Positions 1,640 through 62,875 of a stretch of 64,000 nucleotides of DNA are shown here, one piece after another. The stretch is from positions 24,284,727 to 24,348,726 of the forward strand of contig NC_080051.1 in NCBI RefSeq assembly GCF_026212465.1, given 5' to 3'. Position numbers and translations under genes: made by a program. This stretch comes from Amaranthus tricolor. Taxonomy: Eukaryota; Streptophyta; Magnoliopsida; Caryophyllales; Amaranthaceae. Positions within the stretch are counted from its first letter, which is position 1. Each line of letters opens with the position of its first letter. Below the pieces are notes generated by a model that saw nothing but the letters and a program-made list of their open reading frames with translations, did no database searches and was not told the origin of the DNA.

Positions 1640-2935
1640 ATGGCTCCTACAAAAAACTTAAGTACACAACAAAGAGAACAAATAATGCAGAAGTTGCTGT
1701 CTGCATAAAATAAGAAGGGCAAACCAGTGCTAGGCACAATCAGTGCACTTGCAATTGAGTTTCAAGTGTGTAGGAAAACAATCACACGTTTGTGGAATGA
1801 TGTCAAGAAGCAGATGACAAACAACACCACAGTGATTAACCTCAACAATAAGAGAAGGGGCAGAGAAGCAGCAAACAAAATCAAATTCGATGAAGAAAAA
1901 TTTAAGGCCATTAAATATGAACTCAAGGGTACTTAGCATTCAGTAGCAAAGCAGATGGACGTGTCACAATCAACAGTGTGTAGATAGAAGAGGAACAAAG
2001 TCATAAGAAGGCACACAAACGCAATCAAACCGACTTTGAATGAAAACAACAAGTTACACAGGTTAAGCTTTGCATTATCTAAATGTGAATATGATGAACA
2101 AAATGATGCATTCAAGTTTAAGCCATATACTAACGTTGTTCACATAAATGAAAAACACTTCTATCTAACCCGAGAGACACAGAGTTATTATCTAGCTCTT
2201 GGTGAAGTAGAACCACATAGAGAGTGTCAATCAAAAATGTTCATTCCAAAAATCATGTTTATGTGTGCAGTTACAAAGCCAATATTTACAACTGAAGGTG
2301 ATGTTTTTTTTGATGGTAAGATAGACATTTGGCCATTTATTACACAGGAGCCAGTAAAAAGAAGCTCAAAGAACAGGAAAAGGGGGGAGTTGGAAACAAA
2401 ACCAATACAATCAATCACAAAAGTGCACATTAGAGCAATGCTTATCACTAATGTGCTGCCAACCATAAGAGCAAAATGGCCTGCAGGATTGTCAAAGCAT
2501 ATTTACATTCAACAAGACAATGCCAAACCGCATATAGCACACAATGACAGAGAAATTTTAGAAGAGGCAATGAAAGATGGATTTAATATACAATTAGTGC
2601 AACAACCTCCAAATTCCCCTGACATGAACATGCTAGATCTAGGTTTTTTTAGATCAATTCAAGCTTTGCAATATCAAAAATCTGCTTACAATGTTACAGA
2701 ATTACTTAGGGCTGTGAATAATGCATTTCAGAATCTAAGTCCACAATGTTTAAGGTTTGTATTCATCACTTTACAAGCTTGTATGATAGAGGTTATGAAA
2801 AGACAAGGGGGGTTTGACTATCACATTCCTCACATGAACAAAACAAAGGCAGCAAGGGAAGGGACTTTACCAGATTACCCGAGTATTGACAAGCAATTGG
2901 TTGTTGATTCACATCAACATTATTCACAAAGCTAA
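1640..2935 (+). pseudogene. Plant mariner-like transposase, DD39D type, inactivated
   Basis: One continuous frame from ATG 1640 to 2935 (431 codons before the stop) matches plant Tc1/mariner transposases, interrupted by in-frame stops at 1706, 1934 and 1985. An N-terminal helix-turn-helix region (ISALAIEFQVCRKTITRLW) is followed by the catalytic domain. The second and third acidic positions are present: IYIQQDNAKPH, and NMLDLGFF 39 residues later. The first is changed: VVHINEKHF has Asn where the family has Asp (HIDEK). Three stops plus loss of a catalytic Asp make this copy dead by two routes. There are no other frameshifts, so decay is moderate. In the family this enzyme cuts at the TIRs and inserts at TA. 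Confidence 0.88.
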
Positions 2936-3557
2936 GTACAAAAAAAATGAATCAGCTTGTGGAACTGATTGGCTATGCAGGGGGGATTGATCAAGGGGAT
3001 TTGAATGTAGAATTATCAGAAAACGGCAACAACCAATCTCAACGAATTTCAGCAAGAGCAACAGAAATCATCATATGAACAACAGAACAGCAACCAACAA
3101 AATTTTTTGGGACATACAGTAAAGCAACAACAACACAGAACATCAGCCAACACAACCTTAACCAACACAACAACATGTTTCAAATGTAAATTCCCTTTGA
3201 CTTTGGACATATTTTTGGGATCTTTAACATGGGATGTTTCAGATGCAAACAACAAAAATTTTATGTTGTTTTCAATGAAACATTTTTATTCAATTATACA
3301 TTAATGAAAAAATTGGTTGTTTTAGTACTCTCAGGTAAACTTATTTATTTTTTTTTGAAATCATTGAGTAGAAAATCGAACATCTTTGTGCATTAAACGT
3401 TGGAAAACAATCCAAACCCCCTTTATTCGATTTTATGGTGGCTAAAAATGCTCACTTTCAGATCACTGAGCAATGAAATAAAATGCGTACAAAAACGTTT
3501 AAATTAAAAATCATCATCAGTCAAAATGAACATGCACCAACACGAATAGAAACTCAC

Positions 3558-3957
3558 TTGAGAAAGAACCTAGCTTATCAAGCCAATCTTCTTCTTCACA
3601 ATCAGTATTCGAAAAAACAGTATCAATGGAAGAATATTCACGATCAGGATACATATCAGGCTCAGGTGTGTAAATGGGTTCACCTTCAGAGTCAAGTGCT
3701 CTTCCCCACTTAGGATCAGTCTCAATAGAAGTTGAGTCATCATAGTAATCAAAAGACTCTTCCTCAAACAATTTCAGTCCAGATTTAGGGTTCTCATCAT
3801 CGAACCCCTTAAACTCTATCTTAGAAGGCGATTTGTAAGGAGATTTGGGGATTCTCAGAAGTAAATAAGTACGCGAGTAAGGGTTTTTCATGGGTGAGTT
3901 GATTGTCGAGTTAGGGTTCTTCAGGGGGGATTTAAAAGGCAAATTGGAGTTTGCCAT
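3558..3957 (-). CDS. Antisense exon-like ORF inside the mariner element, unknown function
   Basis: On the minus strand an ATG at 3957 opens an intact frame of 133 codons up to a strong 5' splice-site match (CAA|GTGAGT at 3560-3552). Reading through the site would end in a stop at 3517 (146 aa). The N-terminus repeats short Ser-Pro-Lys units (FKSPLKNP, INSPMKNP, YKSPSK); the rest is acidic (EEESFDYYDD, DCEEEDWLDKL). I do not recognise the family. It lies convergent to the dead transposase yet is itself undamaged. The upstream minus-strand sequence (3958-4260) looks like a plant 5' leader that has been tandemly repeated. It may be a captured host first exon or a second element gene. Confidence 0.4.
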
Positions 3958-4197
3958 GAGAACAACACGAAAGAAATTAAGGAATAAGGTGTAGCTTCAA
4001 ATCAGATCTAGGGTTATCAGAGAACAACACAAAAGAAATTAAGGTAGACGGTGAAGCTTCAACCCAGATTTAGGATTTTCAGAGAACAACACGAAAGAAA
4101 TTAAGGAAGAAAGTGAAGATTCAACCAAAAATTAGGGTTATCAGAGAACAACACGAAAGAACTTAAGGAAGAAGGTGAAGCTTTAACCCAGGGTTAT
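3956..4197 (-). repeat. Four-copy tandem repeat, unit about 61 bp
   Basis: Four imperfect units share the core AGAACAACACGAAAGAAATT, followed by AAGGAAGAAGGTGAAGCTTC and a variant of AGGGTTATC. They lie immediately upstream of the minus-strand ATG at 3957, so they would form its promoter or 5' leader. Units differ by several substitutions, so the expansion is not recent. Confidence 0.75.
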
Positions 4198-4599
4198 CAG
4201 AAAACGGCAAGAGGAATTGGGATGGGTAGGGTTTTAGGTTTAAAAATGGAGGGAGTGTTTAAATGGGTGGGTATGTTAATTAGGATTAAGTATGTTGATT
4301 AATTAAAAGGGAGGGAAAATTAGTATGGGTAATGGAGGGTATAATTGAATATAGGATAAACTACTAAGGGCATAATAGTCAAAAATGCATACCAAAAATA
4401 GAAATGGGACAATTAAGATGACTTGACCATAAAAGGAAATAGGACACCTAAGCTGAATAGGAGGGAGTATAATAATAACTTATGACTAGTATTCAAACCA
4501 TTATAGAATTCAATTATAAAAAGAGTCTCTACACATTTAAAGTTCACAATCTATTAATACATACATTAAGCACAAATACTTTGACTTTTATTATATTCA

Positions 4600-6339
4600 C
4601 TTTAAGTTAAACATAAATACAGTTTTAATAAATTATAACGATACATCATCATTATCGTCCTATCCAATATATCTCGCTCATAGAAAAATATATCTCGCAA
4701 TGGGTAATTCACCTCATGTGGCCTCAATTGCCTCGATGGATAAGCTATATTTATGTCTTGCATAAGTACACATCCCATACCTTTAAATGAAGTATCCAAT
4801 AGACCTTGAATCGTTTGCTACAATCATGCACTATCAATACATGAGCAGTAGTGATTCTCCTCTGTGATTCCTCAAATGCAATCGTGTACCTCTTACTTTA
4901 TTAAAATCGAATTCTTTTCTTCAACAACTCAAACATGGGACGAGTAACCTTAGAGAAATTCTCAACATATTTCCTATAGTAACCAGCAAAACCCAAAAAG
5001 CTTCGAACTTCAGTTACATTCCTCGTAATCGACAATTGGTTATCGTCTTAATCTTCTCCAGATACATAGAAATTCCATTCTCAGACACAATATAACCCAG
5101 AAAAAAAAACTATTTCCTCAAGCCAAAACTCATACTTAATAAATTTTCCTAAATATTTTTTTTTCAAAGTTTTAGCATAATCCTCAAATTTTCCTCATGT
5201 TCCTCCATTTTTCTCGAATATACCAAAATTTCATAAAAACTATAAACTTATCCAAATAAGGACGAATGTATCTCTGCATCAAATCCATAAACGTTGTTGG
5301 CGTATTTGTTACCCCAAATGACATCACCGAAACTCATAAAGTCCATAACTGACGCAGTCTTTAGAATACCATTCTCGGCTATCCTTGATTGATGATACCT
5401 AAATCTTAAATAAATCATAGAAAACTCTTGAGTTCCTAACTTCTAACTAGTCGAAAATATCATCTATCCTAAACAAAGGGTAACTGTTCTTGGTGGTAAT
5501 CTTGTTAATCTCCCTATAGTCAATGCACAACCTCATTGTACCATCATTTTACTAACAAATAAAACAGGGGCTCTCCAAGGCGACACATTACTGCGAATAA
5601 AACTCTTTTTTTTTTTTTTTCCCTAGTAACTCATCCACTACTTCTATAATTTAGTGAACTCGACTAGGATAAAATGGTACAAAGTCTTGGACATAAAGAT
5701 AACATCATAAATCCGATCAATATGGAAATCAACAACTCTCCTCGGGGGTAAACAAGGTAAATCCTTAAGATAAACATTAGGATATTCACTAACAATCGGG
5801 GTTTCGTCAAGACTCAATTTGGCTTTATCCTTACTACTGGAAATAAAACACATGCACGTATCTCTCATCTCTATACTTAATCATCTTAATGGCTTGAACG
5901 ACATAAATGGTTTGAACAGGGGACACATATTTGTTCATAATCAAGCACTCATCTCCTTGAGTTTTAACCCAAACAATCTTGTCCTTTAAAAAAAATCTCC
6001 ACATGATGACGTCTCTAAAAATCCATACACAAAATAATATCATAAGTACCCAATTCAAACACTATCAAGTCGACAGTAGATGATGATCTAAAATCTTAAG
6101 AGGAAAGCAGGAAAAATACAGTCACATAGGAATGGTGAACTGATAGGTGAACAAATTTGGGGATTGAAATTCAGAGGTTTGAAAGACGGAGGATTGTGAA
6201 GAAAAGAGGTAGAGATAAAAGATCGGTCGACCTTAGAATCAAAAAGAATATGAATGGAAAAATTTTCTATGAGAAAATTATCAGAAATAACTTTACCTTC
6301 AAAGTGTTCATTCACGTTAACTGTTATTCCAATTGTCAA
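4600..6339 (-). pseudogene. Ty3/gypsy pol remnant (protease, RT, RNase H)
   Basis: Reading minus, pieces appear in the gypsy order. A protease-like segment at about 6255 has ILFDSKVDRSFIS (family LFDSGATHSFIS, with Gly-Ala changed). At 5868-5660 is PIVSEYPNVYLKDLPCLPPRR, the linker before RT. At 5530-5200 are [34 protein letters not shown] and PYLDKFIVF, where the catalytic box is frameshifted. At 4799-4680 is RNase H with GMGCVLMQ and SRQLRPHEVNYP. Stops and frameshifts occur throughout. Integrase and the 3' LTR are missing, so the downstream half has been lost toward 4600. Confidence 0.8.
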
Positions 6340-6595
6340 ATCCTAGACTCCTGAGTGAGGAAATATTATAATCTTTCGTCATCTCAAATGAAATTTAAAC
6401 ATGTGGTCAATATCACATTAACATAATTATAATATGTAATCTACACATGGTCACACAAGCACAAAAGTAAAAAAATTTGAAAAAAAGGTTATTTGGAAAA
6501 AAAAAAAGAAAACACATCTTTTTTTTTTTGAAAATGTCGGCTATCGAGAACTTTCTTTTACATGGAACCGAAGTTCCGGGATTTGATTAACTTTA

Positions 6596-6607
6596 GCTCT
6601 GATACCA
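6596..6607 (-). other. Primer-binding site, tRNA-iMet type
   Basis: TGGTATCAGAGC on the minus strand is the standard complement of the plant initiator tRNA-Met 3' end. It starts two bases after the LTR terminus TGTTACA, as expected for first-strand priming. Confidence 0.85.
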
Positions 6608-9225
6608 CGTGTAACAAGAGAGGCAATCTCGATACATAATTAACATTTAATAATAATGTTTAATACAAAAAAATTATTGCGGAAGTCTCAAAATGCCGAA
6701 TTGTTAAAAACTTTAAATCATAAAACTAAAACTGTTTACAAAAAAAGTAAAATATTACCTCTGATAAGAAATATTGTTTGCTCAAAAAGAAAAAAATACA
6801 TCATCATCAAGTGATCAATAAAGATACAAAAAGCAGCTAAGTTCTCGATAACTAGTAATTGCTGCGGCCTGGATCGGAACCTGAACTAAATCCTGCAAAA
6901 TGCTGCCATCCATGATACGGATGACAGCCGATTGAATCGGTCAGCGCTTAACGCCGAGCATAACTTCCTATCCAGCTCAAAATACGGAAATTATACGCTA
7001 CTTTTACAAAATAATAATTTAAGTACGAACTTATACTTAATTGACACCACCGTATATTTTTACCATGTTCTTTTTTGTTACATACTTTTAAGTCATTAAG
7101 ATATCATTCTCGATCTTGACAGAAGTACGTTACTGCCACTTATACAATTCGGTAATCTTAACACTTGAATAAGTTCATTTGGTTAATACTCATAACCGTA
7201 CCATGCATCATAGCATCAACACTAATCAAGTTTATCAGTGATCAACAAGCACATCAATATGACACCTGATATATGTAAAGGTCTGGTTAGGTGAAAACCG
7301 TAGTCCTAAACCCTAACTGTGGTGGGAGTCGTCACCCCTCCAATACAATATTTATGCTCGAGCTCTACAGGATAGGTAGCGAACCCCCTGTCTTACACCG
7401 CATTTTACGTGCCGGCCAACACGGACGCCGGGATTTTACATGCCGGTCCATGGTTCGACATTACCTTACTATCAGGGTCATTCAATCAATACATTTCACA
7501 CAAGTACATCACATTTTTATTACTCTAAGTTGACTTTGAATTTGAATTTGACCAACCTAAGTGGTAACTTCATTTATTTAATATAATTCTTAATCATAAC
7601 GTTTAATTCACATTTACGTCTTTATATGTTCATTACTTAATTTTTACACATTAAATTTTATTTATAACTTTATTTTAATAGTTCACTAAATTCACACTAA
7701 TAACTTAATATTTTATTAATAGTCTCCAAATTAGTATTTTTCACAAGTAGCTACTAAAATCTATTTCTCTTGAAATAAGTTTCCAAAATCAAAATTTCCA
7801 ACTTTAAAATAAATAAAACTTTATTCTCCTCACAAAATCAAACATTCTAATTAAAATTCAAGTTAAACTGCAACCTTTGGATAAGTTTTCAAAATTCAAC
7901 AAGTTTACCAAAAAAATAATTATTTCAAGTTTGGAAAAACAAGTAAACTTATTAGATTCGCGAAAATCAACATTCTAGTTATAAAACAAATAAAACTTAT
8001 AATTTCACAAAAACATCAATATTTCACACATAGTTTAAGAACAAGTTTACTAAAAATACTTTTACATCTTTTTATATAAATTTTGGTCAAATAGTTAGCA
8101 GATAAAATATTATTTTGTACTAAATAATTAAATGTCACAAAAGTTATTATTATTTTTTTTTAATTATGAAATCTCATATATTCAAGAAAATCACTTCAAT
8201 ATTTAATAACTTATAAAGCTTTCTCAAAAATAACTTTTAAGATTTTATTTTAATATTATCACAAAATAGCTTATAATAATATAAAAAAAAATAAATCAAA
8301 CTCTTTTTCTTTTAATATGATAATGGTCGAATGGCCTATGAGTATTTCGGGGCCTTTTTTCACTAATAAAACAACTTCATTTAATTTATCATAGTAAATT
8401 CAAGATTTAAATAATTAACATAACCACTAAAAAACAAATAAAAAATAAAAACTTTACACAATAACTTAGAAATTTACTATAACTTTTAAGGATAAACTTA
8501 AATCTCATAATAAAGTATAATAACAATATTCTTAATATAATCATACTTAGTAAAATACGTTCATAAAATAACTTATTACCTTATAAACTAGTTTGAAGGC
8601 TAACATAAACATATTAATACAATATTCAAACATAAAATAAATTCTTAAATATAATAACATTTCTAATGTAACACATAACTCATAAATATACTAGCACTAG
8701 TTTATAACATGAATCATGCTTAATATCACTAGAATATAATTTTGCACTCAACTTCCTAAACTTGTTCAAAGACTATTAGATTAACATACTAAATATACTT
8801 TTAGCATACACATACTTAATATAATCTTGATCATAATTTCATTAAACTAACTTCCACTAAAATATATCAACATATTTCATACTTTGCATATTATAAAGTA
8901 AATATAATGTAAAATTCCACAAAAAGAGTAGGGTAAGAAGTTATACCATACTAACACCAAGGATTAGTACTAAGTACTAATTAGAAAAATAATAAGAAAT
9001 AAGATCCTCCAAGATAGATAATAATGCTCCAAAGATAATTAATCCCAACTCCCAAAATAATGATGATGATTTAAGCTAAGTAAAGAGTGTTCTAAGCTCC
9101 ATGTTCTTTAATTTCTTCAATTAATAAAGGTATTAATGTAGTAAGATTTTAATGAAGTGAAAATATAAGAAAGAATGTTAGAAAGATTTGATGATGGTGG
9201 TGTAAGTGATCTCATGGCTAAGGGG

Positions 9226-9978: not shown

Positions 9979-10400
9979 CCTAGCTCGAGGAAGATAAAAA
10001 GACGTAACTACACGCGAAAGATAAATTAAAAGCCTGTAAATAAAATAAATAAGTAGAACCAACTACAAAATTAAAGAAAACAAAAAAAACTAATAATAAT
10101 GAAACAAGAGAAGCAAGAGGGCAAGAACACCAAAAGGTAATATAAGCGTACATCAGTAGTCTAAAACATGAATGTGGCGCCTCCAATTACCCCTATCTCT
10201 AGTCAGGCCCTAAAAAAAGTTTAACTCAAGCAAGTAAACTTTTATTTGCTCATCCCAAGTTCTCCTATGTCTTCCTTGACTCCTCTTACCCTCTACTATA
10301 ATGCTTTCTACCCTCCTCACAGGGGCGTCGAAAGTCTTTCTTTGCACATGTCCAAACCACCTCAATTTATTTTCGCGCATTTTACTAGAAATAGGGGCTA
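9979..10400 (-). mobile_element. RTE-type LINE, 3' end fragment, interrupted by the gypsy LTR
   Basis: Minus-strand reading from about 10400 gives the C-terminal tail of a LINE reverse transcriptase: KLRWFGHVQRKTFDAPVRRV, then GRHRRTWDEQIKV and NWRRHIHVLDY, with a stop at 10153. One in-frame stop follows ELNFF. The 3' untranslated part continues to 9979, where the gypsy LTR begins abruptly. Two related copies occur at 44236-44505 and 57745-58267, and they show what sequence should follow the break. The 5' part is missing. Confidence 0.8.
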
Positions 10401-12410
10401 CCCTCTACTATAACGATACATGTATATTTATATATAAGGCCAATGTTGAAATATGAACCAATAATCTCCCACTTGGGCTATATGAAAAAAACTATATAAA
10501 CATGCATCATGTATCATCAATTTTTTTTTTCCCCGCATGATCTTCATCAAGGTACCAATACACTTTTACTTTGAAAGTCAACCACTATAAAATTATTCCG
10601 AACAAACACTTTTTCAATAGATGTTGCAACTATTGTAGACCTGTATAATGGGCCAAATAAGAGACATAATGACTCTACTTTTAACGGTCTCGGACGGGTC
10701 TTACAAAACAGATGCAGGTTCTAATTGCGTCGGTCTTGATGGCCCGACCTGTTTATATTAATTTTTCACAATTTCTTGCATCACCATTTGGAATCCAACT
10801 GGACGTTCGAAACATGATAATTCAGCATTATCAGCATCTAAACACCAAATTGCCAATGGTGCTGCGGCTTGCAAGCATCAGCAATCATTTGTACTCCAAG
10901 TTGCTAATTGCACAATCAAATAAGACCTGACCCGTTAAAGCCCATTTTATTTTACAATCAGTGTAAATCTTCTATTTTATTTTACATAAAAAAAATGAGC
11001 TTAATTTTAAGCTTCTGCCACGTGTACAAATAGCATCAGAGATTGCTACACGTTTTTTGTGTTCCCTGTTCATTATCTCACCTTCCCACATACCAAAAGT
11101 AAAAACAACAGAGTACTAGAAGACCAAGTTGCCTGTTCATTAATTTATTTACCTCACTTTCATTCACATTAAAATAGATCTACTATTTTATAATTAAAAA
11201 AAATTATTTTTTAAATAAAAATAATAATTTTAAATAAATATAAATATAAATATAATTTTTAATAAATATTTTTTAATATTTAAGAAAAATTCGTTAACTT
11301 CAAATAAATATTACAATGCACATACATAAAATAAATACAAAAATACTTTTTCCTTGGTTTTTTTTTTACATGGATTTCTTCCATAATTTGGGTTATTTGA
11401 ATCCATATTTTTTTTGGGGATTTTTGAAATGATTACTTTGGTATTTTTTTAACCAAAAAAATACCGAAAATATGAACAAAATATGTAAAAAAAAAATTAT
11501 GTCAAAATATATCAATATGGGTCTCATTTTATAGATCTCGAAAAAATATGACCGTTGGTATAATTTTTTTAAAAAAAAAATTATATAAATACGAAAATAG
11601 CCGTTAAAGGCAAAAAACGGGTATTTGTTCGCTGCCCAATGAACACGCGACACGTGGAAAGGCATGCATGGAGCTGTCAGGTTATTGTTTTTTCTGATTT
11701 TTTGGGCCAATGGGTGCGTGACACGTGACAGATTTTTTGAAAAAAAATTTGTGACCGTTTTGATTCCCGGGTCACACTATGACACTTTCTTGCAACCTAT
11801 TTGCCAACCCACCTCAATTGAGATCACCAATAGGAGTAAATTTACTCCAATTTGGTCATATGATCTAAAACTAGATCACCATTACTTGTGCTCTTACACT
11901 TCAGAATTCTCTCATTTTTTTGCTTCATCTTTCTGCTTTTCTCCTTTCTCCTGTGTTGTCACGCCATTTTTCATAGCTTCAATGCTTCGTCTTTAATTTT
12001 TGATTAGGGATTTTTCATATCTTACTTCTACTTCTCCCTTTTCCTTGAAAAATTAGGGATTTTCGGCTTTTAAAGTCAAGACTGGGTTTTAGTTCTTGAT
12101 TTTAGGGTTTATGGTTCTTGCTTGATTGAGGTACTTATTTTCTTAAAGTTTCGTTTTTTATCATTTGATTTTCATTTTAATTTCAATTTTTCATTTTGAC
12201 TGATTTTCATTTTATCTTTATATTTAATTTTCAGTTTAGTTTTGATTTTCATTTGATTTGTTGTTTTTGCTTTACATTTAATGGCCTTCTATGTCTATCC
12301 ATGGTGTTGTAATGCTGAGACACAAATATTGTCTCATTGTTTGGTGTAGAAGGCAGAAATTTGATATTTTTTGCTGAGAAAATCATTAAAGTAATTACGC
12401 TGATATGCAG
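10401..12410. other. No gene recognised; AT-rich DNA with two G-box-like sites
   Basis: No open frame resembles a protein. CACGTG occurs near 11018 (GCCACGTGTACA) and ACACGTG near 11650 and 11720, in two similar short blocks (CCAATG...GACACGTG) that look like a small duplicated repeat. From about 11880 the plus strand becomes strongly T-rich, as in plant introns and leaders, so an unrecognised transcribed unit could begin here. Confidence 0.3.
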
Positions 12411-15425: not shown

Positions 15426-15708
15426 GTAACTATTTTTTGTTTGTCCATCTTACACCCTTCATACTCGTTAACAACCTAGCTAAGCTTTATGACTGAACAT
15501 GTATGTTCACTATAAAGCTTTTAATACGTTTTCAGGTCTTGATTTGATGTCAGTGCTTACAATTACCTATACGTCTTCTGCCCTTTTATCCTTTACACCT
15601 CTGTAACACATTGACATTATAATATTTTTATTTGTATTCTTGATAATGAAAATATATAAAATAACATGATATCCGATAGTGTAACTTGGGGGACCGTGTG
15701 CGTAGCAC

Positions 15709-15840
15709 GCGGCCCCACAACTATAGTACTTTAAAATACGCACACGGCCCCACAACTATAGTACTTTAAAATACGCACCAGCCCCACAACTATAGTACTT
15801 TAAAATATGCACGCGGCCCCACAACTATAGTACTTTAAAA
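15709..15840. repeat. Four-copy tandem repeat, unit about 37 bp
   Basis: Four near-identical units contain GGCCCCACAACTATAGTACT followed by TTAAAATACGCAC. Units are almost unchanged, so the array is probably young. It lies about 280 bases downstream of the kinase relic. Confidence 0.85.
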
Positions 15841-16533
15841 TGTTAGTAACTACCATCTATTTATATCCTCTTGATTTGCATATTACTTTGTTAAGTTTGC
15901 ACCAGATGAGTTAAATATATGTTTTTATATACAATTATAACTTTGTACAATTGATGGGCACAAAAATAAGATGATTAATGTGAATTCTCTATAAATAATG
16001 TCAGGTAATGACATTATTTGCACATGAAATTGCTCCCTCTTTTTCTCATACTCATGTTACAAATTTCATCTGTATTATTACCAGTGTTTCATTGAATCAC
16101 GATAGTAATCATTTAGAATTTTATTTATAATTATAGAAACATACTTAGCTTGTTTAATTTGACCCATTTTATTTTATATTAGATTATTTTTAAATAAAAA
16201 CTTTTTGGATAGACATGATGATGACTGTTTAATTAATCTTTATTTTTTGTATAATTAATAATGTACGAAAAGTTTTACAACTAAATTAGAAGGGTTTTTT
16301 TAGCTTACAATTTAAAATTATGGGTTAGTTTAATGGTTGATAGCTTTTCTTTTACACTTTAACAGAAAATAAATTTGATTTTTACAATCTATAAAAAGAA
16401 TTAATTTTTTCCACTTGCCTGGAAAATTTATCCATATAATTTTAAATTTCTAAGGTTAGTATGAACTTAGTGCTAAGTTTTTTCTTATGTCACGTTTTAT
16501 ACTTCTTTCTAAGGTTAGAATGACTTTCGTGTT

Positions 16534-16585: not shown

Positions 16586-16589
<4 letters not shown>

Positions 16590-16898
16590 TTACTGTATTT
16601 GATTTGTGGAAAAACTTAAGCTTTTGATTAATGTTTGATCAAGGAATCTAAGTGCTGGTAGAGGTTTTGTTCTTAATGCTTTGCCAAGTTATGCTGAATG
16701 ATCTCTCAAGAAGATGATAGTTCCTACAAAAAGCAACGAGGGGTTAGTAGGGCTTAGAATGTTTTTCAGGGGATCAACTCCGACGCCCAAGTTAGTAACA
16801 CTCTACAAAAAACTATTAAACTGGCGACACACATTATCGTCGCCATTTCATAGCTAAATGGTCAAAAAGTTCCCTTGTCGACGGGAGGGCGACGAGGT

Positions 16899-17125
16899 TC
16901 GTGGTGGTCGCCTTTTCGTTCGTCGCTAACACCAAAATGGACGCCATATCCTCGCCATTTTTTAAAGAAAAGTTGGCGACCAAGAGGCGACGAGATGTCC
17001 ATCACCAAGAACGTGGTGGTCGCCTTTTCGTTCGTCGCTAACACCAAAATGGACGTCATATCCTCGCCATTTTTTAAAGAAAAGTTGGCGACCAAGAGGC
17101 GACGAGATGTCCATCGCCAAGAACG
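16899..17125. repeat. Left subterminal direct repeats, 112-bp period
   Basis: Two tandem copies start GTGGTGGTCGCC at 16901 and 17013. They are dense in GTCGCC/GGCGAC and CGACGA motifs. In CACTA elements such subterminal repeats bind TnpA-type protein; here they are recognised by position and repetition only. Confidence 0.8.
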
Positions 17126-17271
17126 TGTCTGACATGGCGACAAGAATCTCCTCGCCAACGTTCTTGCCAGGCCTGGCGACCAAATATCTCGTCGCCAATA
17201 TGGCGACCACCTTCTGATAGCCTTTTCGTCGCCTACTGCTAGCGACAACATTTTTATGCTTTTTGGTCGCC

Positions 17272-17273
<2 letters not shown>

Positions 17274-17341
<68 letters not shown>
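17274..17341. repeat. (TA)n microsatellite in left arm
   Basis: A long TA run between the subterminal repeats and the TnpA-like gene, mirrored at 23731-23816 in the right arm. Confidence 0.95.
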
Positions 17342-17345
<4 letters not shown>

Positions 17346-17490
17346 TATATTTATATATATTTTGTATTAGTTATAATATTAAGATAAAAATATATACACA
17401 TAAAACAAATAAATTAAAATAAAAGAGCTGGAAATATTATATATAAAACTAAAATTTATTTACAAAGTCACAAAAATTACATATATTTTA

Positions 17491-18745
17491 TCATTCATTT
17501 GGAGGGGGTGGAGGAAGAGGTTGATTCAAATTGAAATGCGATTCAATGAATTTCAAAAAGAGTTCTCTTTCTCTTGTTATTTGTTCAGTCAGCCTTTGAT
17601 GAGTCTCATAGAAAGTCTGAGCATTTCCTCTTCGTATCGCTTCCCATAATTGATCATTAAACTCCATTTGTCGGGCTTCTGAATCCGCAAATCTTTGTTG
17701 TATCATTAATGGCATCATAATCAGGTTGTGCAGGCTGAGAAGACGGAATATCCGTTGGCTCAGGAGGATAAATAATTTGAGAGGCGGATCCAACCCCAAA
17801 TACCTCTTTGTTTTTTTTGTTTGAACTGCTTTCTACGTTTTTTATAATACTACTTAAAATTCAATATAATACTACTTAATTAACTAAGTACTCACTAAAT
17901 CCCGCATTGTTCTGGCGTGCGGGATTTAGCCACCTATATGGGTGGCTTCAGCTTTATCTTTTCCTCCACGTCTATTGGAGGAATTCCTAGCCGAAACGGC
18001 TTTGTTATTTGGGCGTTCCCAATCAACCTTCCATCGCGCCCAGGTCTCATTATCGATGGAAGGAGGTTTAAATTCAGGCTTGCTTTTCAACGTCCTGCGC
18101 CATTTGAAAAGTATATCCGCATAGCGCTTTGCAGCTTTTTCCTCCCATGACCTTCGAACGAAATGTTCGAGGCGAGGGTTCCATTTGTATTGTTTCTAAA
18201 TACATAAATATTTCATCAAATAAAATACTTAATATAATTTATATATAAAAAAGTCTAAAAATAAACAACAAAATAATAATTTTACCTTAAATTCATTAAA
18301 ATAAAAATCTTTGGTGGGTTTGGTCACATCCTTCCAACTACTACCTTCGACATCTTGCCTATAATTAAAGGTAGCCTTTATTTTTGATGCAATGGTGTTC
18401 CCGGATATCGAATTAAATCTTACAATATTTAACAAAATTAGTTTACATTGAAATTTTAATATTGAAAAAAAAAATGATAATAAGATGATAAAAACATTTA
18501 CTTGTTTATTGTTGGTAACCATGGAAGATTCGGACGATGATCGTCTCCATTGTGCTCTTCCATATTATGTATGAATCACTTGGAGTATTTTCACTACTCC
18601 CATGAACTGGGTTATTGTTGTCTTCGTCGCTATTGTTGTCGTTGCTAGTCGACAAATTATTCAAGAAATAGTTGTTAGCCCAATCATTAGGGTCGCTGCT
18701 CATTTTGCCTATAATATTTATTTCAAACCCTAATATTATTTTCAA
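17491..18745 (-). pseudogene. TnpA-like CACTA second gene, left copy (broken)
   Basis: Minus-strand exons: MSSDPNDWANNYFLNNL (about 18702), RFNSISGNTIASKIKATFN (about 18415), a block with WDPRLEHFVRRSWEEKAAK to NSSNRRGGKDKAEATHIGG ending in a stop at 17915, and a C-terminal block RQMEFNDQLWEAIRRG to NLNQPLPPPPPNE (stop near 17491). The family encodes a DNA-binding accessory factor for CACTA transposition. This copy lacks the exon after HIGG and has frameshifts in the first and last exons. Confidence 0.75.
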
Positions 18746-19375
18746 CTAAAATCAATCTTTATTTATACCAGAAAATGTCCCAATTTTATCTACATAATGA
18801 ATTATTTCATCCCAAACTAAACATTACTACGTATACTATTAAAGTAATTCGAAAATTACATTTAAAAAAAAAAACTGTTTTAATTAACATTAGACATGCT
18901 CAAAAAATCGAAATTATAAAAAAAAATTAAAAAATTTCGAAACTAGATAATAACATCATATTAAAAATGAATTACTCTATAATTCCAAAATTACATTCTA
19001 AATAAAAGAAATGTAGAAAAATATAACATAAAATATGCTCAAAGTATACCAAAATTCATAATTCGAAAATATAAATTACTTTGAAATTCAAAAATTGCAT
19101 AAAAATAACATTAAACATGCTCAAATTATACCATAATTCGAAAATGTTAAAAACATACAAAAAATGACGAAACAAAATAATAACATTAGACATGCTCAAA
19201 ATATACCATAATTTGAAATTTAAAAAAAACATACATAATTCAACATAAACATATGAAATAACAAGAAAAAACATGTTGAAGATGATAATGTACTCCATAG
19301 CTCGAAATCAAACATAAAAAAAAAAAACATTCAAACATAATTTATCATCATAATCATCAAGAACATTGAAATAAT

Positions 19376-20925
19376 TCAAAAAATTAAACAATAAACACTA
19401 AAATAGTTGTCGTTCTCAACATCTTCATCTTCGGATTGTTCGTTTTCTGACAGTACAAGATCCACATCTTCTTTAGTATCTTCATCATTATCATGCATCT
19501 GTTGAACAATTTCGCCAGATGGATCAAGAAGCGGTGTTTGGGAAACATCTTCTTCAATTTCAATACGGTTCCTATTTTCTTCTTGGAAAGCAGCATCTTT
19601 GGATTCCTGTTCTACTTCTTTGTCAAATTTAATTTGTTTGACTTTGCAAACCGCTTTCCAATCTTTTAAATTATGTCTTGTACTCGGATATAGAAGATAA
19701 TATACTTGACATGCTTGACTTGCCAACACAAATGGATCATATAAACGATACGAGCGACCTTGATGTATGTCAACTAACTTGTATCGTTTATGAATATTTG
19801 TTCCGCGGCTATTTCTAGTAGTAGTTGGGTCATACCAATGACATTTGAACAACGTTACTCTTTTGATAGGTATCCCCGGGTATTCAACCTCTACGATTTC
19901 AAACAATTGCCCGTAAAAATCTTTTTCGTCACGACTGTTGTCAGTAGCTTTGACGGACACTCCACTATTGTCTGCTAATTTATTTGATGCATGACGTACT
20001 GTATGGAATCTATATCCGTTTGTGTAACACATTGTAACTCCGAGCATGTTTAAGTGGTCCTTCAGCAATCTGCTTCAAAATTTCACTGTTCACTCGGTTA
20101 TCGAATGATCCTTGTCTTGCCTGTCAGATAAATGGAAATAATTTATGAATTTAATTAATGTAATACTGACATACATACATAATAACTAACGTAATAGATG
20201 AACAACATACTGCAGTTCTGAACGCATTTGTGAAATTCTCTTGCACAAACGCTTCAATCCTCTGACTTGACCAATTCGGTTGATGTCTTTGAATTGAACT
20301 TTTAAACTCAGATACAAATACATCCACCTCTGGACAGTTCATTAGCACGTATCTATGTGCAATCTCATAAACTCTTTCATCCAAAATATATGCTTTTCCT
20401 TTTCCATGAAATCTTATTGGATGACTGAAGATTGTGAATACACCAGTTACAATATTGTTGTAACTTCCATCGTCATTCCTAGGAAGGTCTCTGACCCTGC
20501 ATCGCACATGTGGCTCAAAATAATGGGAAACAAAATGCGATGCTTTCTCGGTTAAATATGCGTTGCATATCGACGCTTTAACATGAGCTTTATTTTTCAC
20601 ATTCAGTTTCAAATGTCTAAGATACCTGTACAAAAAAATTAGTTCACCGGTAGAATAATGAAAAAATTAATTACATATGATTTATACCTCTCAAATGGAT
20701 ATATCCATCTGTATTGGACCGGTCCCGCAATTCTAGCCTCATATGCCAAATGGATAGGAAGGTGTTCCATGCTATCAAAGAATGTAGGCGGAAATATAGT
20801 CTCTAGTTTGCAGATGATAACCGGAATATCTGCTTGCATCTTCCTCAAATCCTCCACACATAGCTTTGTGGTTGTCAAACTTCTAAAGCATAAGCTTAAT
20901 TCCAATTGCATTCAGAGAATTGCTA
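19376..20925 (-). pseudogene. CACTA transposase, C-terminal half (DUF4218 + DUF4216), left copy
   Basis: Reads minus from SLTTTKLCVEDLRKMQADIP and EYRW-like segment VQYRWIYPFER (DUF4218) through an intron to SHYFEPHVRCRVRDLPRNDD, with a donor near 20208, then an exon from about 20120 with NRVNSEILKQIAEGPLKHAR. A two-base loss in SYNV-CYTNG shifts the frame before the DUF4216 part KRVTLFKCHWYDPTTT and YDPFVLASQACQVYYLLYPS. The ORF ends at 19376 after an acidic tail. The N-terminal TNP2 catalytic part is absent. Confidence 0.85.
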
Positions 20926-20948
20926 CCGGTGAAGGTTTGGGAAGCTCT
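20626..20948 (-). other. Single-copy loop between the CACTA arms
   Basis: The loop belongs to the minus-strand transposase copy: exon sequence ending in YRWIYPFER (20925-20688), then a 62-base intron (20687-20626, GTATAA...TACAG) that joins in frame to the left-arm exon YLRHLKLN. The left copy is therefore about 300 bases longer at its 5' side than the right copy. Confidence 0.75.
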
Positions 20949-22090
20949 TACCTTAGACATTTGAAACTGAATGTGAAAAATAAAGCTCATGTTAAAGTGT
21001 CGATATGCAACGCATATTTAACCGAGAAAGCATCACATTTTGTTTCCCATTATTTTGAGCCACATGTGCGATGCAGGGTCAGAGACCTTCCTAGGAATGA
21101 CGATGGAAGTTACAACAATATTGTAATTGGTGTATTCACAATCTTTAGTCATCCAATAAGATTTCATGGAAAAGGAAAAGCATATATTTTGGATGAAAGA
21201 GATTATGAGATTGCACATAGATACGTGCTAATGAACTGTCCAGAGGTGGATGTATTTGTATCTGAGTTTAAAAGTTCAATTCAAAGACATCAACCGAATT
21301 GGTCAAGTCAGAGGATTGAATCGTTTGTGAAAGAGAATTTCACAAATGCGTTCAGAACTGCAGTATGTTTGTTCATCTATTACGTTAGTTATTATGTATG
21401 TATGTCAGTATTACGTTAATTAAATTCATAAATTATTTCCATTTATCTAACAGGCAAGATAAGGATCATTCGATAACCGATTGAACAGTGAAATTTTGAA
21501 GCAGATGGCTGAAGGACCACTTAAACATGCTCGGAGTACAATGTCTGTTACACAAACGGATATAGATTCCATACAGTACGTCATGCATCAAATAAATTAG
21601 CAGACAATAGTGGAGTGTCCGTCAAAGCTACTGACAACAGTCGTGACGAAGAAGATTTTTACGGGCAATTGCTTGAAATCGTAGAGGTTGAATACCCGGG
21701 GATACCTATCAAAAGAGTAACGTTGTTCAAATGTCATTGGTATGACCCAACTACTACTATTAATAGCCGCGGAACAAATATTTATAAACGATATAAGTTA
21801 GTTGACATACATCAAGGTCGCTCGTATCGTTTATATGATCCATTTGTGTTGGCAAGTCAAGCATGTCAAGTATATTATCTTCTATATCCGAGTACAAGAC
21901 ATAATTTAAAAGATTGGAGAGCGGTTTGCAAAGTCAAACAAATTAAATTTGACAAAGAAGTAGAACAGGAATCCAAAGATGCTGCTTTCCAAGAAGAAAA
22001 TAGGGACCGTATTGAAATTGAAGATGTTTCCAAAACACCACTTCTTGATCCATTTGGCGAAATTGTAGATAATTCATTATGTAGATAAAA
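20949..22090 (+). pseudogene. CACTA transposase, C-terminal half, right copy
   Basis: The same exons as the left copy on the plus strand: YLRHLKLNVKNKAHVKVSIC to FRTAV (about 20952-21362), an intron, an exon from about 21454 with a one-base loss near LKHARS, then VSVKATDNSRDEEDFYGQ and KRVTLFKCHWYDPTTT up to TPLLDPFGEIV, where a deletion removes the normal C-terminus. It begins abruptly at the palindrome loop. Confidence 0.85.
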
Positions 22091-22128
22091 TTGAGACATT
22101 TTTTGGTATAGTTAAAGATTGATTTTAG

Positions 22129-23692
22129 TTGAAAATAATATTAGGGTTTGAAATAAATATTATAGGAAAAATGAGCAGCGACCCTAATGATTGGGCTAGC
22201 AACTATTTCTTGAATAATTTGTCGATTAGCAACGACAACAATAGCGACGAAGACAACAATAACCCAATTCATGGGAGTAGTGAAAATACTCTAAGTGATT
22301 CCATACATAATATGGAAGAGGACGATGGAGACGATCCTCGTCCGAATCTTCCATGGTTACCAACAATAAACAAGTAAATGTTTTTATCATCTTATTATCA
22401 TTTTTTTTTTCAATATTAAAATTTCAATGTAAACTAATTTTGTTAAATATTGTAAGATTTAATCCGATATCCGGGAACACCATTGCATCCAAAATAAGGG
22501 CTACCTTTAATTATAGGCAAGATGTCGAAGGTAGTAGTTGGAAGGATGTGACCAAACCCACCAAAGATTTTTATTTTAATGAATTTAAGGTAAAATTATT
22601 ATTTTGTTGTTTATTTTTAGACTTTTTTATATATAAATTATTTTAAGTATTTTATTTGATGAAATATTTATGTATTTAGAAACAATACAAATGGGACCCT
22701 CGCCTCGAACATTTCGTTCGAAGGTCATGGGAGGAAAAAGCTGCAAAGTGCTATGCGGATATGCTTTTCAAATGGCGCAGGACGTTGAAAAGCAAGCCTG
22801 AATTTAAACCTCCTTCCATCGATAATGAGACCTGGGCGCGATGGAAGGTTGATTGGGAACGCCCAGATAAAAAAGCTGTTTCGGCTAGGAATTCCTCCAA
22901 TAGACGTGGAGGAAAAGATAAAGCTGAAGCCACCCATATAGGTGGCTAAATCCCGCACGCCAGAACAATGCGGGATTTAGTGAGTACTTAGTTAATTAAG
23001 TAGTATTATATTGAATTTTTTTATTATCTTTTGTTTAATTTCAAGTGGTTTTTTTATTTAATATTTCAGGAACAATCAAAAGGTCAAAGACCCACAACTT
23101 ACGAAATATTTACACGAACACATGGGTCTTTGACAATGAAACAGGGGATTGTTCCCAATGGATGAATAACAAGTCACAAAAAGTTAACGTAATAATCTAT
23201 TAAAGTTGTTTATTTATTTATTTTTAGTATCAATTAATACTTTGTTTATTGGTAATTGATTTCTTTGTTTTATTGAAGGATGAATATCGTTCTTTGATGG
23301 AGGAGCATCCAACTCGCAACCCAAGTCAAATTTGGTTGGATGCTATAAAAAACGTAGAAAGCAGTTCAAACAAAAAAAAAGAGGTATTTGGGGTTGGATC
23401 CGCCTCTCAAATTATTTATCCTCCTGAGCCAACGGATATTCCGTCTTCTCAGCCTGCACAACCTGATTATGATGCCATTATACAACAAAGGTTTGCGGTT
23501 TTAGAAGCCCGACAAATGGAGTTTAATAATCAATTATGGGAAGCGATACAAAGAGGAAATGCTCAGACTGCCTATGAGACTCATCAAAGGCTGACTGAAC
23601 AAATAACAAGAGAACGAGAACTCTTTTTGAAATTCATTGAATCGCATTTCAATTTGAATCAACCTCCTCCTCCACCTTCTCCAAATGAATGA
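22129..23692 (+). pseudogene. TnpA-like CACTA second gene, right copy
   Basis: More complete than the left copy. Exon 1 (from about 22129, inner ATG 22171) ends PWLPTINK near 22374. Exon 2 (about 22459-22590) reads FNPISGNTIASKIRATFNYR. Exon 3 (about 22680-22948) reads LEHFVRRSWEEKAAKCYADM and ends HIGG-stop. A later exon (about 23070-23190) reads GQRPTTYEIFTRTHGSLTMK and then meets a stop. The last exon (from about 23279) contains EYRSLMEEHPTRNPSQIWLD and ends with a Pro-rich tail at 23692. The stop after HIGG, where family members continue in frame, is shared with the left copy and so predates the duplication. Confidence 0.78.
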
Positions 23693-23722
23693 TAAAATAT
23701 ATGTAATTTTTGTGACTTTGTA

Positions 23723-23730
<8 letters not shown>

Positions 23731-23809
<79 letters not shown>

Positions 23810-23816
23810 ATATATA
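23731..23816. repeat. (TA)n microsatellite in right arm
   Basis: The counterpart of 17274-17341, longer and with one interruption. Confidence 0.95.
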
Positions 23817-24124
23817 ATAAAAAGGGCTTGAAACATAGCAAGTGATAATCTCTAAATCTATGCTTTATAACACAAATAATTACTATGTAATTTTTGAATT
23901 GTATCAAAGAAAAATTGGTGTATTTTTAAGAAAATAATAATAAATAATGAGGGAGAATAAATTATGTTGATGAAATTTATAGAGAGTTAATATATCAATA
24001 AGATTAAAAGAAAATAATAAATCATGATCAAAAAGTAAAAATTATGCAAATTAAGCAGGACGAATCAAAATGTTTAAAGTGAAACATAAGTATAATTTAA
24101 ACAGTAAAAATAATAATACTGTTG

Positions 24125-24440
24125 GCGAGAACGTTGGCGAGGAGATTCTTGTCGCCATGTCAGACACGTTCTTGGTGATGGACATCTCGTCGCCTCTTGG
24201 TCGCCAACTTTTCTTTAAAAAATGGCGAGAATATGGCGTCCATTTTGGTGTTAGCGACGAACGAAAAGGCGACCACCACGTTCTTGGTGATGGACATCTC
24301 GTCGCCTCTTGGTCGCCAACTTTTCTTTAAAAAATGGCGAGGATATGGCGTCCATTTTGGTGTTAGCGACGAACGAAAAGGCAACCACCACGAACTCCAT
24401 CGCCAAGGCAGACCATTTAGCTATGAAATGGCGACGATAA
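24125..24440. repeat. Right subterminal direct repeats
   Basis: The mirror of the left set: two copies of a block containing GATGGACATCTCGTCGCCTC and the GGCGAC-rich sequence around it. Having identical subterminal arrays at both ends is abnormal, because CACTA 5' and 3' subterminal regions usually differ. Confidence 0.8.
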
Positions 24441-24481
24441 ATCGATAATGTGTGTCGCCAGTTTAATAGTTTTTTGTAGTG

Positions 24482-26378
24482 TGTATACTTTGATTTTTTT
24501 TTTTTTTTTTTGTTTTTCTGTTAATGAAGAATTTAAGTTACCTCATTTATGTGCTCTATGATCCGTATTTATAGCTCTTAAATGTGCTTGTAAAACATTC
24601 TTCTGAATTTTTAATCCCCATAACTTTCTGCATGCCACTGTGCTTGCGTTTGACGTGTCAATCCTTCATTTATTCTATTGTATTTTATTCTTTGCTTCTC
24701 TTTTGGACATGTGTCCTGCTACCTTATAATGCCTTTCCATAGTTGACAGGTGTCTCCCAACCACTCGTGAGCTTCTCATGCATTAATATTATCTTATTTG
24801 TAAAATGTTCTTTTTTGCCCGTATCAGATGAATGTTCCTAGATAACTTTCTAGCCTAAATAATTCTTTTCAAATTAGTATTAATTTAGACCTTCTGGATA
24901 ATCTTTTATCATAATTACTCATGCTTAATCTTTTATATATATATAAAATTTAAAATGACACAATCATACAGCTGTATATAATTAAAAGATTGATTAAATC
25001 CCCTATGACTTGGAAATAGGCGTAGCCAGTATGTAAGCAAATACCAAAATAAATGTCAACGAAGAAAAAATCATTTCACCAATAAATAACAAATACATAT
25101 GATACATGCTGAAGAAGGTTTCAATTATTAGAGGTGACGTAATTTGAAATGTTAGAATCGGCCAAATACCAAGTCACATTAATATTGTCAACTTAAAAAG
25201 GACATAATTACATGCATGGATAATAAAAGTATTTACATGCTTGGATAATAAAAAGAAATTGACCTAAGTGGAAATATTAAAAAACACACATTTCAATACG
25301 TACTTTAAAATTCAAAGGTGTAATGTATGTAGCATACAAAATTACATTTTTAGTAATTTTGAATTACACGTCAAAAATAAACCTTAACAAGAGTGGATCC
25401 CTAATTAAAAATGAACTTGCATAGGCATAGCTTAATTTAATGTTTATTATAAGGTAATTAATATTAAACTTTGTTTTAAATCACTACAGCATACTCCCTT
25501 CGTTTTTTTGTTTACCATACTATAACGAGTAGTTTCAAATATTAATTATCTTATGATAAATATTAATATATTATAATAGGTAGTTTCAAATTAATGTTAG
25601 TGGGATGTATTTAGTAATATTTAATTTAAATATCATAACTTCTTATAATGTTATAGATGTTGAATTTAGTGACATTTATTAGACCCTTTAGCAGTATAAT
25701 AAAAAATCATACTAAAACTTTTTACGACATAAAATCTAGTGACATTTTTCACAAATGCCACTATAAACTAAAATCTCTTCATAGTGACACTTAAAGTAAA
25801 ACCAATAATTATTACACTAAAAATATAAACCAATGAAATTTATTCAAATGTGACTAAATTCTATAATGTAAAAAGTTAATTTTGTTATAATATATGGACA
25901 TCAAGCAATCAATAAAAATATATAAGTTATGTTCTTTGTTCTCAACTTTTTTTTTAATATTTATAAAACGGGTTACAAGTCCGGTACTAAGAGTTAATAT
26001 AGTTATAACAATAGTTTTTTAGTGTATACATTTGGCCATTAGATATGTTGCATTGAATATGTGTAATAAATTTAACTAATTCGAAACTCAAATAATCCGA
26101 AACTAAAATAATCCGACGCCTTATAATCTTAAAAAAATATATATAGTCTATATATCCGACTAACAGTTAATTAAGATACACATATATGGGAGTATATATT
26201 ATAAGTAATCGTGCAAGCAGCTCTACAAGATATTTTGTGATAAGATCTCAATTACATAAGCTAGTATTGACTTAGCATGCATATTATTAATACACTCTGA
26301 AAAATAATTCACCAAAAAACAGGTGAACGTTTATTTAATACTCCTACCAATTTTTATCAAATAACTACTTTCTCTTGC
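24482..26378. other. Intergenic, no gene seen
   Basis: AT-rich DNA without a credible frame. It includes a poly-T tract at 24494-24511 and blocks around 25510-25640 resembling decayed MITE ends (ACTCCCTTCGTTTTTTTG) without a recognisable partner. Confidence 0.4.
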
Positions 26379-61682: not shown

Positions 61683-62197
61683 GAACTTAGAAGAGTGTCC
61701 TAGGTGTGGGTTATCACGCTACAAGCGTAAAGGGGTTCGGGATGCTAAAGGGCCCCCAGCTAAGGTATTGTGGTATCTTCCAATAATAGCTAGATTCAAG
61801 CGCTTGTTTTCTATAAAGAAGATGCGTTAAATTTGAGATGGCATGTAGATAGGGTGAAGAAACGTCACTTGCTCACACATCCATCTGATTCTCTGGAGTG
61901 GAAGAGTATTGATAGGTTGCATAAGGCTTTTGGGGATGAGGTTCGTAATTTAAGGCTCGGACTGTGTACGGATAGAATGAACCCATTCGACAATCTTAGT
62001 TCTCAACATAGTACTTGGCCGGTACTTTTAGTGATCTATAATTTGCCACCTTGGTTGTGTATGAAGGGTAAGTACATTATGCTTTCGCTTCTTATCTCGG
62101 GTCCTAAACAACCTGGCAATGACATAGATGTATATCTTGCACCTCTCGTTGAGGATTTGAGAAAGATGTGGGATGAAAGGGTTTCAGTGTTTGTTTT
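61683..62197 (+). pseudogene. CACTA TNP2 transposase fragment (catalytic region)
   Basis: Reads ECPRCGLSRYKRKGVRDAKG-PPAK and LWYLPIIARFKRLFS, a frameshift near 61828, then RWHVDRVKKRHLL, FGDEVRNLRLGLCTDRMNPF, LVIYNLPPWLCMKGKYIMLS and GPKQPGNDIDVYLAPLVEDL. This is the conserved core of En/Spm-type transposases, with family TDGMNPFG changed to TDRMNPFD. It stops being alignable after ERVSVF, where tandem repeats begin. Confidence 0.88.
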
Positions 62198-62200
62198 GCG

Positions 62201-62875
62201 CATAAAGTAGCTCAAACTTTATTTGATTTGCACAAAACTTGGCATACAACATTATTTGGTATATACTATTGTGTTGAAGTGGTTAGAATTGAAAATCATT
62301 GTCATATGCTAGAAATTACGTGTTAAGTTGCGATTTTAAGAGTTTTTAAGCGTTTTTGCCACTTTTGCGCGTAAAGTAGCTCAAACTTAGTTTGTTTTGC
62401 ACGAAACTTGGCACACAACACTATTTGGTATATATTATTGTTTTGAAGTGGTTAGAATTGAAAATCATAGTCATATGTTAGAAATTACGTGTTAAGTTGC
62501 GATTTTATGCGTTTTTAAGCGTTTTTGCCACTTTTGCGCATAAAGTAGCTCAAACTTGGTTTGTTTTGCACGAAACTTGGCACACAACATATTTGGTATA
62601 TATTATTGTGTTGAAGTGGTTAGAATTGAAAATCATACTCATATGCTAGAAATTACGTGTTAAGTTGCGATTTTAAGGGTTTTTAAGCGCTTTTGCTACT
62701 TTTGCGCATAAAGTAGTTCAAACTTGGTTTGTTTTGCACGAAACTTGGCACACAACACTATTTGGTATATATCATTGTGTTGAAGTGGTTAGAATTGAAA
62801 ATCATAGTCATATGCTAGAAATTACGTATTAAGTTGCGATTGTATGCGTTTTTAAGCTTTTTTGGCACTAACATC
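62201..62875. repeat. Four-copy tandem repeat, period 168-169 bp
   Basis: Copies start CATAAAGTAGCTCAAAC (or variants) at 62201, 62370, 62539 and 62707 and contain ACGAAACTTGGCACACAACA, GTGTTGAAGTGGTTAGAATT and AAATTACGTGTTAAGTTGCG. The copies are very similar. The array separates the TNP2 and Ulp1 pieces. Confidence 0.9.

Follow-up and report, generated by a model that had tools for sequence, protein, structure and literature searches.

In a 64-kb stretch of Amaranthus tricolor DNA (the window, in which all coordinates below are positions), we found a palindrome at 16801–24481 that consists of two outward-facing 3′ halves of a CACTA transposon and lies within a long terminal repeat (LTR) of Ty3 type. 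Its flanks, arms and centre point to an origin in place: one ordinary CACTA insertion was probably broken and then mis-repaired with template switching.

A repeat finder paired parts of 16888–20624 with parts of 20949–24404, the six longest inverted-repeat blocks measuring 718, 479, 421, 282, 269 and 233 nt (94–98%). BLAST merged the arm blocks into alignments of 1122 columns at 97.2% and 951 columns at 97.6%, and global alignment of both arms gave 97.3% identity (82 mismatches in 2990 aligned bases), a similarity far above chance. These results confirm the palindrome of two CACTA 3′ halves that an earlier annotation (the sequence-only reading) had proposed. The left half (16801–20893, minus strand) has its 3′ terminus at 16801 and a leftward gene direction, and it includes a loop segment at 20625–20893. 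The right half (20949–24481, plus strand) has the mirror orientation, ends in a second 3′ terminus at 24481 and is devoid of the loop segment. The unpaired centre, predicted as a loop of about 0.3 kb, measured 324 nt (20625–20948), with the left-derived segment running from 20625 to about 20893 and an inverted piece beginning at about 20894. The right limit given earlier was exact; the left limit, placed at 16799, was refined by two bases to 16801. Mirror order had also been claimed for the termini and subterminal repeats. This held for the termini and for two 112-bp repeat units (16900–17127, minus strand; mirror copy at 24165–24392), but part of the subterminal region differs between the arms, and the arm alignment left about 698 bp in the left arm only and about 325 bp in the right arm only.

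The outer ends carry CACTA-type terminal inverted repeats, CTCTACAAAAAACT at 16801 and CACTACAAAAAACT at 24481 on the minus strand, which differ by one substitution. Both are of the 3′ type; the 5′ end of ordinary relatives (AGCGATGG...) differs beyond the shared terminus. We read the ends of relatives in ten fetched 10-kb stretches. Both ends of one element were visible in four of them (L039, L041, L068 and L070), and each of the four combined a 5′ with a 3′ end and was bordered by a perfect 3-bp target duplication, which bears out the earlier statement that ordinary CACTA elements have unlike ends. Fewer than two ends were recognised in L040, L042, L044, L067 and L069. At the palindrome we found no direct 3-bp target duplication, the left flank being ACA and the right flank TGT, and no pairing of a 5′ with a 3′ end with different subterminal regions, both ends being 3′. 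Since the target duplication is missing, we regard the palindrome as a rearranged derivative and not as an intact CACTA member. The remaining relative, L043 (contig C15), has two 5′ ends at 2763–7962 with flanks TGT and TAT, and its inverted arms align over 557 columns at 77% identity. This makes it another mirror-ended element, opposite in kind to the palindrome; its ends appear to derive from different copies, and it hints that mirror-ended products recur in the CACTA family.

We then compared the flanks with other copies of the host repeat (148 candidates, 40 scored; limits taken from 19 fetched relatives). The two flanks are parts of a single LTR that lacks about 233 bp. The left part (16586–16800, minus strand, left limit approximate) ends in the target bases ACA at 16798–16800. 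The right part (24486–24941, minus strand, right limit approximate) resumes at TACTTTGA. Right-flank sequence was present in 17 of the 19 relatives in the first comparison and in L059 in later ones; L063 showed none. In 17 of the 19 relatives, 198–221 bp (most commonly 212) separates two matched motifs, and adding the roughly 21 bp of the motifs gives the estimate of 233 bp. A retrotransposon gag frame adjoins the repeat in both relatives tested, and because of this frame and the LTR-like limits we identify the host as a Ty3-type LTR in minus orientation, with its promoter directed leftward. Queries with material from two relatives found no internal or gag sequence in the window, so that the host looks like a solo LTR.

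Between the right terminus and the LTR stand the four bases TGTA (24482–24485), made up of TGT, the inverse of the left ACA, and a single additional A. Beyond its two ends the palindrome is therefore bordered by ACA and the inverse of ACA, from which we conclude that both arms probably derive from one insertion. The absence of a direct duplication, the loss of about 233 bp of target and the inverted flank bases together indicate that the palindrome was probably made in place. For the same reasons the earlier reading needs correction, in that the element does not appear to be a palindromic transposon able to move as such. A related possibility is that a two-3′-ended element formed elsewhere, transposed as a unit and later lost its target duplication with some flank. 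Both termini are nearly intact, and L043, whose flanks TGT and TAT come close to a duplication, suggests that mirror-ended elements might move. We nevertheless consider this improbable, given the missing target, flank bases that are inverted and not direct, and a central joint that, as described next, occurs once in the genome. A simple fold-back of a broken chromosome end was set aside, as the mirror symmetry ends within about 10 bp of the termini and does not extend into the flanks.

The centre holds a 59-bp piece (20894–20952, plus strand) that is inverted relative to ordinary copies. Central order was scored in the best 40 of 152 candidate copies obtained with a loop-based query, and all 39 scored copies besides the window had the ordinary order (119 matches, 40 + 39 + 40). 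In ordinary copies the piece, which ends in TTAC, lies upstream of the loop segment in gene direction. In the palindrome the left half keeps the loop segment and lacks the piece, while in the right half the piece abuts the next exon directly and the loop segment is absent. The first joint falls within GCT(T/C)AATTC, where eight of nine bases are common, and the second within TACC. A search of 520 Mb found the second joint only once in the genome at up to three mismatches. A plain inversion of the piece was set aside, since it would leave the loop segment in the right arm. The inner breakpoints of both halves coincide in the gene to within the microhomology, and this shared position suggests one break. 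Locally templated inverted insertions are compatible with microhomology-mediated or template-switching repair.

The main rival is that two sibling elements inserted close together and in opposite orientation into the same LTR, and that a deletion between them took both 5′ halves and the intervening stretch of LTR, the joint being filled by a templated insertion of 59 bp. One deletion would suffice and no long copying would be needed; local sibling insertions would likewise yield sister arms, with outer target bases that differ and form no direct duplication. However, TGTA was found at the right-joint position in none of the 17 readable LTR relatives; in these it is not target sequence, as the left ACA is, and it equals the inverse of ACA with a further A. 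In addition, the internal loss of the right arm coincides with the left breakpoint to within the microhomology. We therefore regard this history as unlikely, though it deserves more weight than any other alternative considered here.

The preferred in-place origin is further favoured by the target loss, a right joint close to the one it predicts (given below), the sister relationship of the arms (see below), the microhomology joints at the same place in the gene and the uniqueness of the second joint. It would start from an ordinary CACTA element in the Ty3-type LTR, with its 3′ end leftmost and adjoining the target ACA. A break within the element, or its excision, would have been wrongly repaired, with the left side retained (or recopied) as far as some position within the transposase gene. 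There, synthesis would have switched at a short match to the opposite strand and copied 59 bp, switched again at TACC and copied the 3′ half outward, across the terminus and into the flank for 3 bp or more. Joining of the new end at TACT to the LTR about 233 bp farther right would yield a two-3′-ended palindrome without the 5′ half of the element. We infer the order of these steps, the repair pathway and any role of the transposase, including in the starting process; the process we favour is either an abortive repair of a gap or the repair of a break, in both cases with switches of template.

Several points weigh against this origin. A TGT flank would arise by chance once in 64 cases. The model predicts the right joint TGTTACTTTGA, in which the inverse left flank TGTTACTAAC is joined at TACT to the target AAATTACTTTGA, and the observed joint, TGT-A-TACTTTGA, is one base longer. 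The survey of the centre covered the best 40 of 152 copies with a loop-based query, and loop-less copies, like a possible nearer parent of the right arm, lie outside its view. Finally, a stop of copying 3–7 bp past the terminus is unexplained by repair alone; a transposase cut in the template could account for it.

We next placed the arms among other copies of the family. A tree built from the inner 1.1 kb, in which 24 other copies were included (of 29 fetched, five being dropped for too little coverage), placed the arms as sisters at 99/96, and a tree of the 3′ half with four other copies gave 99/98. Fifteen changes are common to both arms and absent from all outgroup copies used. Comparison over 2431 sites with three to five outgroup copies per block placed 29 changes on the left arm and 25 on the right, 54 in all, and left two differences unassigned; the arms have decayed equally since their origin. 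An assembler might have folded back one element, as long palindromes are difficult to assemble, but this equal decay makes an artefact unlikely. With 82 mismatches in 2990 aligned bases, assigned changes split 29 to 25 between the arms, arm-specific deletions and missing target sequence, we hold it to be very improbable. Deletions of about 1.0 kb and of 325 bp mark the left arm, and one of about 1.7 kb marks the right. The 1.0- and 1.7-kb deletions were absent from all readable loci (28 of 35, representing 23 distinct copies), and the 325-bp stretch was complete in three of four readable copies, L041 being without part of it.

Changes of the C>T or G>A type make up 33 of the 54 that were assigned (15 at CG or CHG sites, 18 at CHH sites), as expected for methylated, neutrally decaying DNA. 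The arms diverge by 2.2% (24/1112). Substitution rates of 0.7–1.3 × 10⁻⁸ per site per year put the age of the palindrome at about 0.8–1.5 million years, or more if gene conversion has occurred. Assigned C>T changes in the arms are in excess on the plus strand (23 plus versus 10 minus, p = 0.035, post hoc), where base composition is nearly balanced by design because the arms are mirror copies. We rejected this excess as a footprint of transcription: it is post hoc and weak, its direction is opposite to that expected from the LTR promoter, and the direction of replication would account for it equally well.

The palindrome carries a Tnp2-type transposase, a trait of the CACTA (En/Spm) superfamily, and keeps the downstream part alone, in both arms. 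The DUF4216 domain was detected at 19649–19891 in the left arm (minus strand, E = 2.8e-18) and at 21684–21926 in the right arm (plus strand, E = 1.1e-17). DUF4218 was detected in the left arm at 20475–20636 (minus strand, E = 1.1e-07, 32.1 bits against a cut-off of 27), its right-arm counterpart falling just under the cut-off (26.4 versus 27 bits). The relative L042 encodes Transposase_21 (E = 1.5e-78) upstream, and that part is absent from the palindrome. Both arms also carry exons of a second, TnpA-like gene, of which one right-arm exon (22680–22946, plus strand) gave the only match, a sub-threshold hit to Transposase_24 (E = 0.007, 17 bits against a cut-off of 28.7). Of the genes described earlier as lying in mirror order, the C-terminal part of the transposase was thus recovered, with the right-arm DUF4218 below cut-off, while the TnpA-like gene is weakly supported.

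We then considered whether the palindrome could give rise to silencing RNA. An inverted duplication of this length makes a hairpin with arms of more than 3 kb possible in principle, as had been suggested. The LTR contains a TATA motif, TATAAATA (24566–24573, minus strand), about 85 bp outside the right terminus and directed into the palindrome; because it points inward, a hairpin RNA like that of the maize locus Mu killer is possible. The sequence around this putative promoter motif matched within four substitutions in 15 of 19 LTR relatives, and the TATA itself is preserved at the palindrome. If the promoter fired, the RNA would run from an antisense copy of the right arm through the loop into a sense copy of the left arm, and it would fold into a long hairpin for Dicer-like enzymes. 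The arms have 44 exact runs of at least 21 bp in common, the longest of 146 bp (runs of one or two letters excluded). The direction of the plus-strand C>T excess is at odds with leftward transcription and counts against the hairpin. We consider it possible, if somewhat less likely than its absence, that such an RNA exists in some tissue or period; the palindrome itself is most likely a decaying relic now.

Four copies on four contigs, L012 (C16), L014 (C11), L021 (C3) and L023 (C4), form a young CACTA subclade, which is another subclade than that of the palindrome. Their six pairwise distances are 0.9–1.3% over about 0.9–1.1 kb, compared with 2.2% between the arms, which suggests that transposition within the family continued. 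On a simple clock, the origin of the palindrome would predate the movement of some copies at least. Among 325 copy pairs, 15 were closer than the arms; besides the pairs within the four copies, these were mostly near 2.1%, which is hardly unlike 2.2%. The four copies have 46–49% of their 21-mers in common with the palindrome. The nearest copies, L020 and L030, share 62–63% and include no such close pair, but there are only two of them. Continued movement would speak against strong silencing in trans without excluding silencing. The comparison with Mu killer drawn in the sequence-only reading holds for the anatomy, and a TATA motif of the host LTR points inward; strong silencing across the genome is made less likely by the closely similar pairs found elsewhere in the family. 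It is a more novel but improbable scenario that an LTR-transcribed CACTA palindrome, born of failed repair, silenced its own subfamily by hairpin RNA while diverged subfamilies escaped, as a natural counterpart of Mu killer. As a putative silencer, the palindrome is a testable candidate.

Other repeats in the window include a tandem repeat of about four 35-bp units to the left of the LTR (15705–15841), two inverted copies of an approximately 0.4-kb sequence, 83% identical and 48 kb apart (9983–10403 and 57749–58145), and a tandem array of four 169-bp units with 93% matches (62194–62869).

The palindrome is a well-resolved case of a known object, the transposon inverted duplication, in the CACTA superfamily. 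In our literature search we recognised no title as describing a CACTA mirror element, which does not show that none has been published. Transposon inverted duplications are thought to be one route by which genomes first learn to silence transposons, and to our knowledge few natural cases have been worked out. The present locus offers a base-level view of a route by which a single insertion may give rise to a palindrome of this sort, and its plausibly placed promoter motif and datable arms make the chain from failed repair through hairpin RNA to silencing testable.

Among known processes, the abortive repair of the gap left when a cut-and-paste element excises, reportedly described by Rubin and Levy in 1997, resembles our model in its incomplete copying of the element, its template switches at short matches and its defective derivative in place. 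That process usually yields internally deleted elements that retain a 5′ and a 3′ end, whereas here the entire 3′ half would have been copied back in mirror order. Alternative transposition of maize Ac/fAc generates Composite Insertions with internal joints, several of which have 3-, 4- or 9-bp microhomology (PMC4270019). The palindrome shares with them the outer transposon termini and an internal joint; Composite Insertions, as described there, contain flanking genomic DNA and were recovered in a system of two nearby reversed-end elements, whereas the palindrome has two 3′ halves and no direct target duplication (PMC4270019).

With the Tpd1 hairpin of teosinte the palindrome has in common a long inverted repeat, a possible Dicer-like substrate if transcribed; Tpd1 acts against a pollen gene of its host and is backed by small RNA evidence, while the palindrome is a putative hairpin source made of transposon sequence (PMC11390486). 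Mu killer (Muk) has a known transcript, 21–22-nt RNAs and silencing in trans (PMC8224964). It is a Mutator derivative, and the palindrome, a candidate for such a role, is a CACTA derivative with two 3′ ends within an LTR. Like Mu killer, however, the palindrome is an inverted duplication of a transposon at a single locus, and read-through RNA from it would form a long hairpin matching the genes of the element (PMC8224964).

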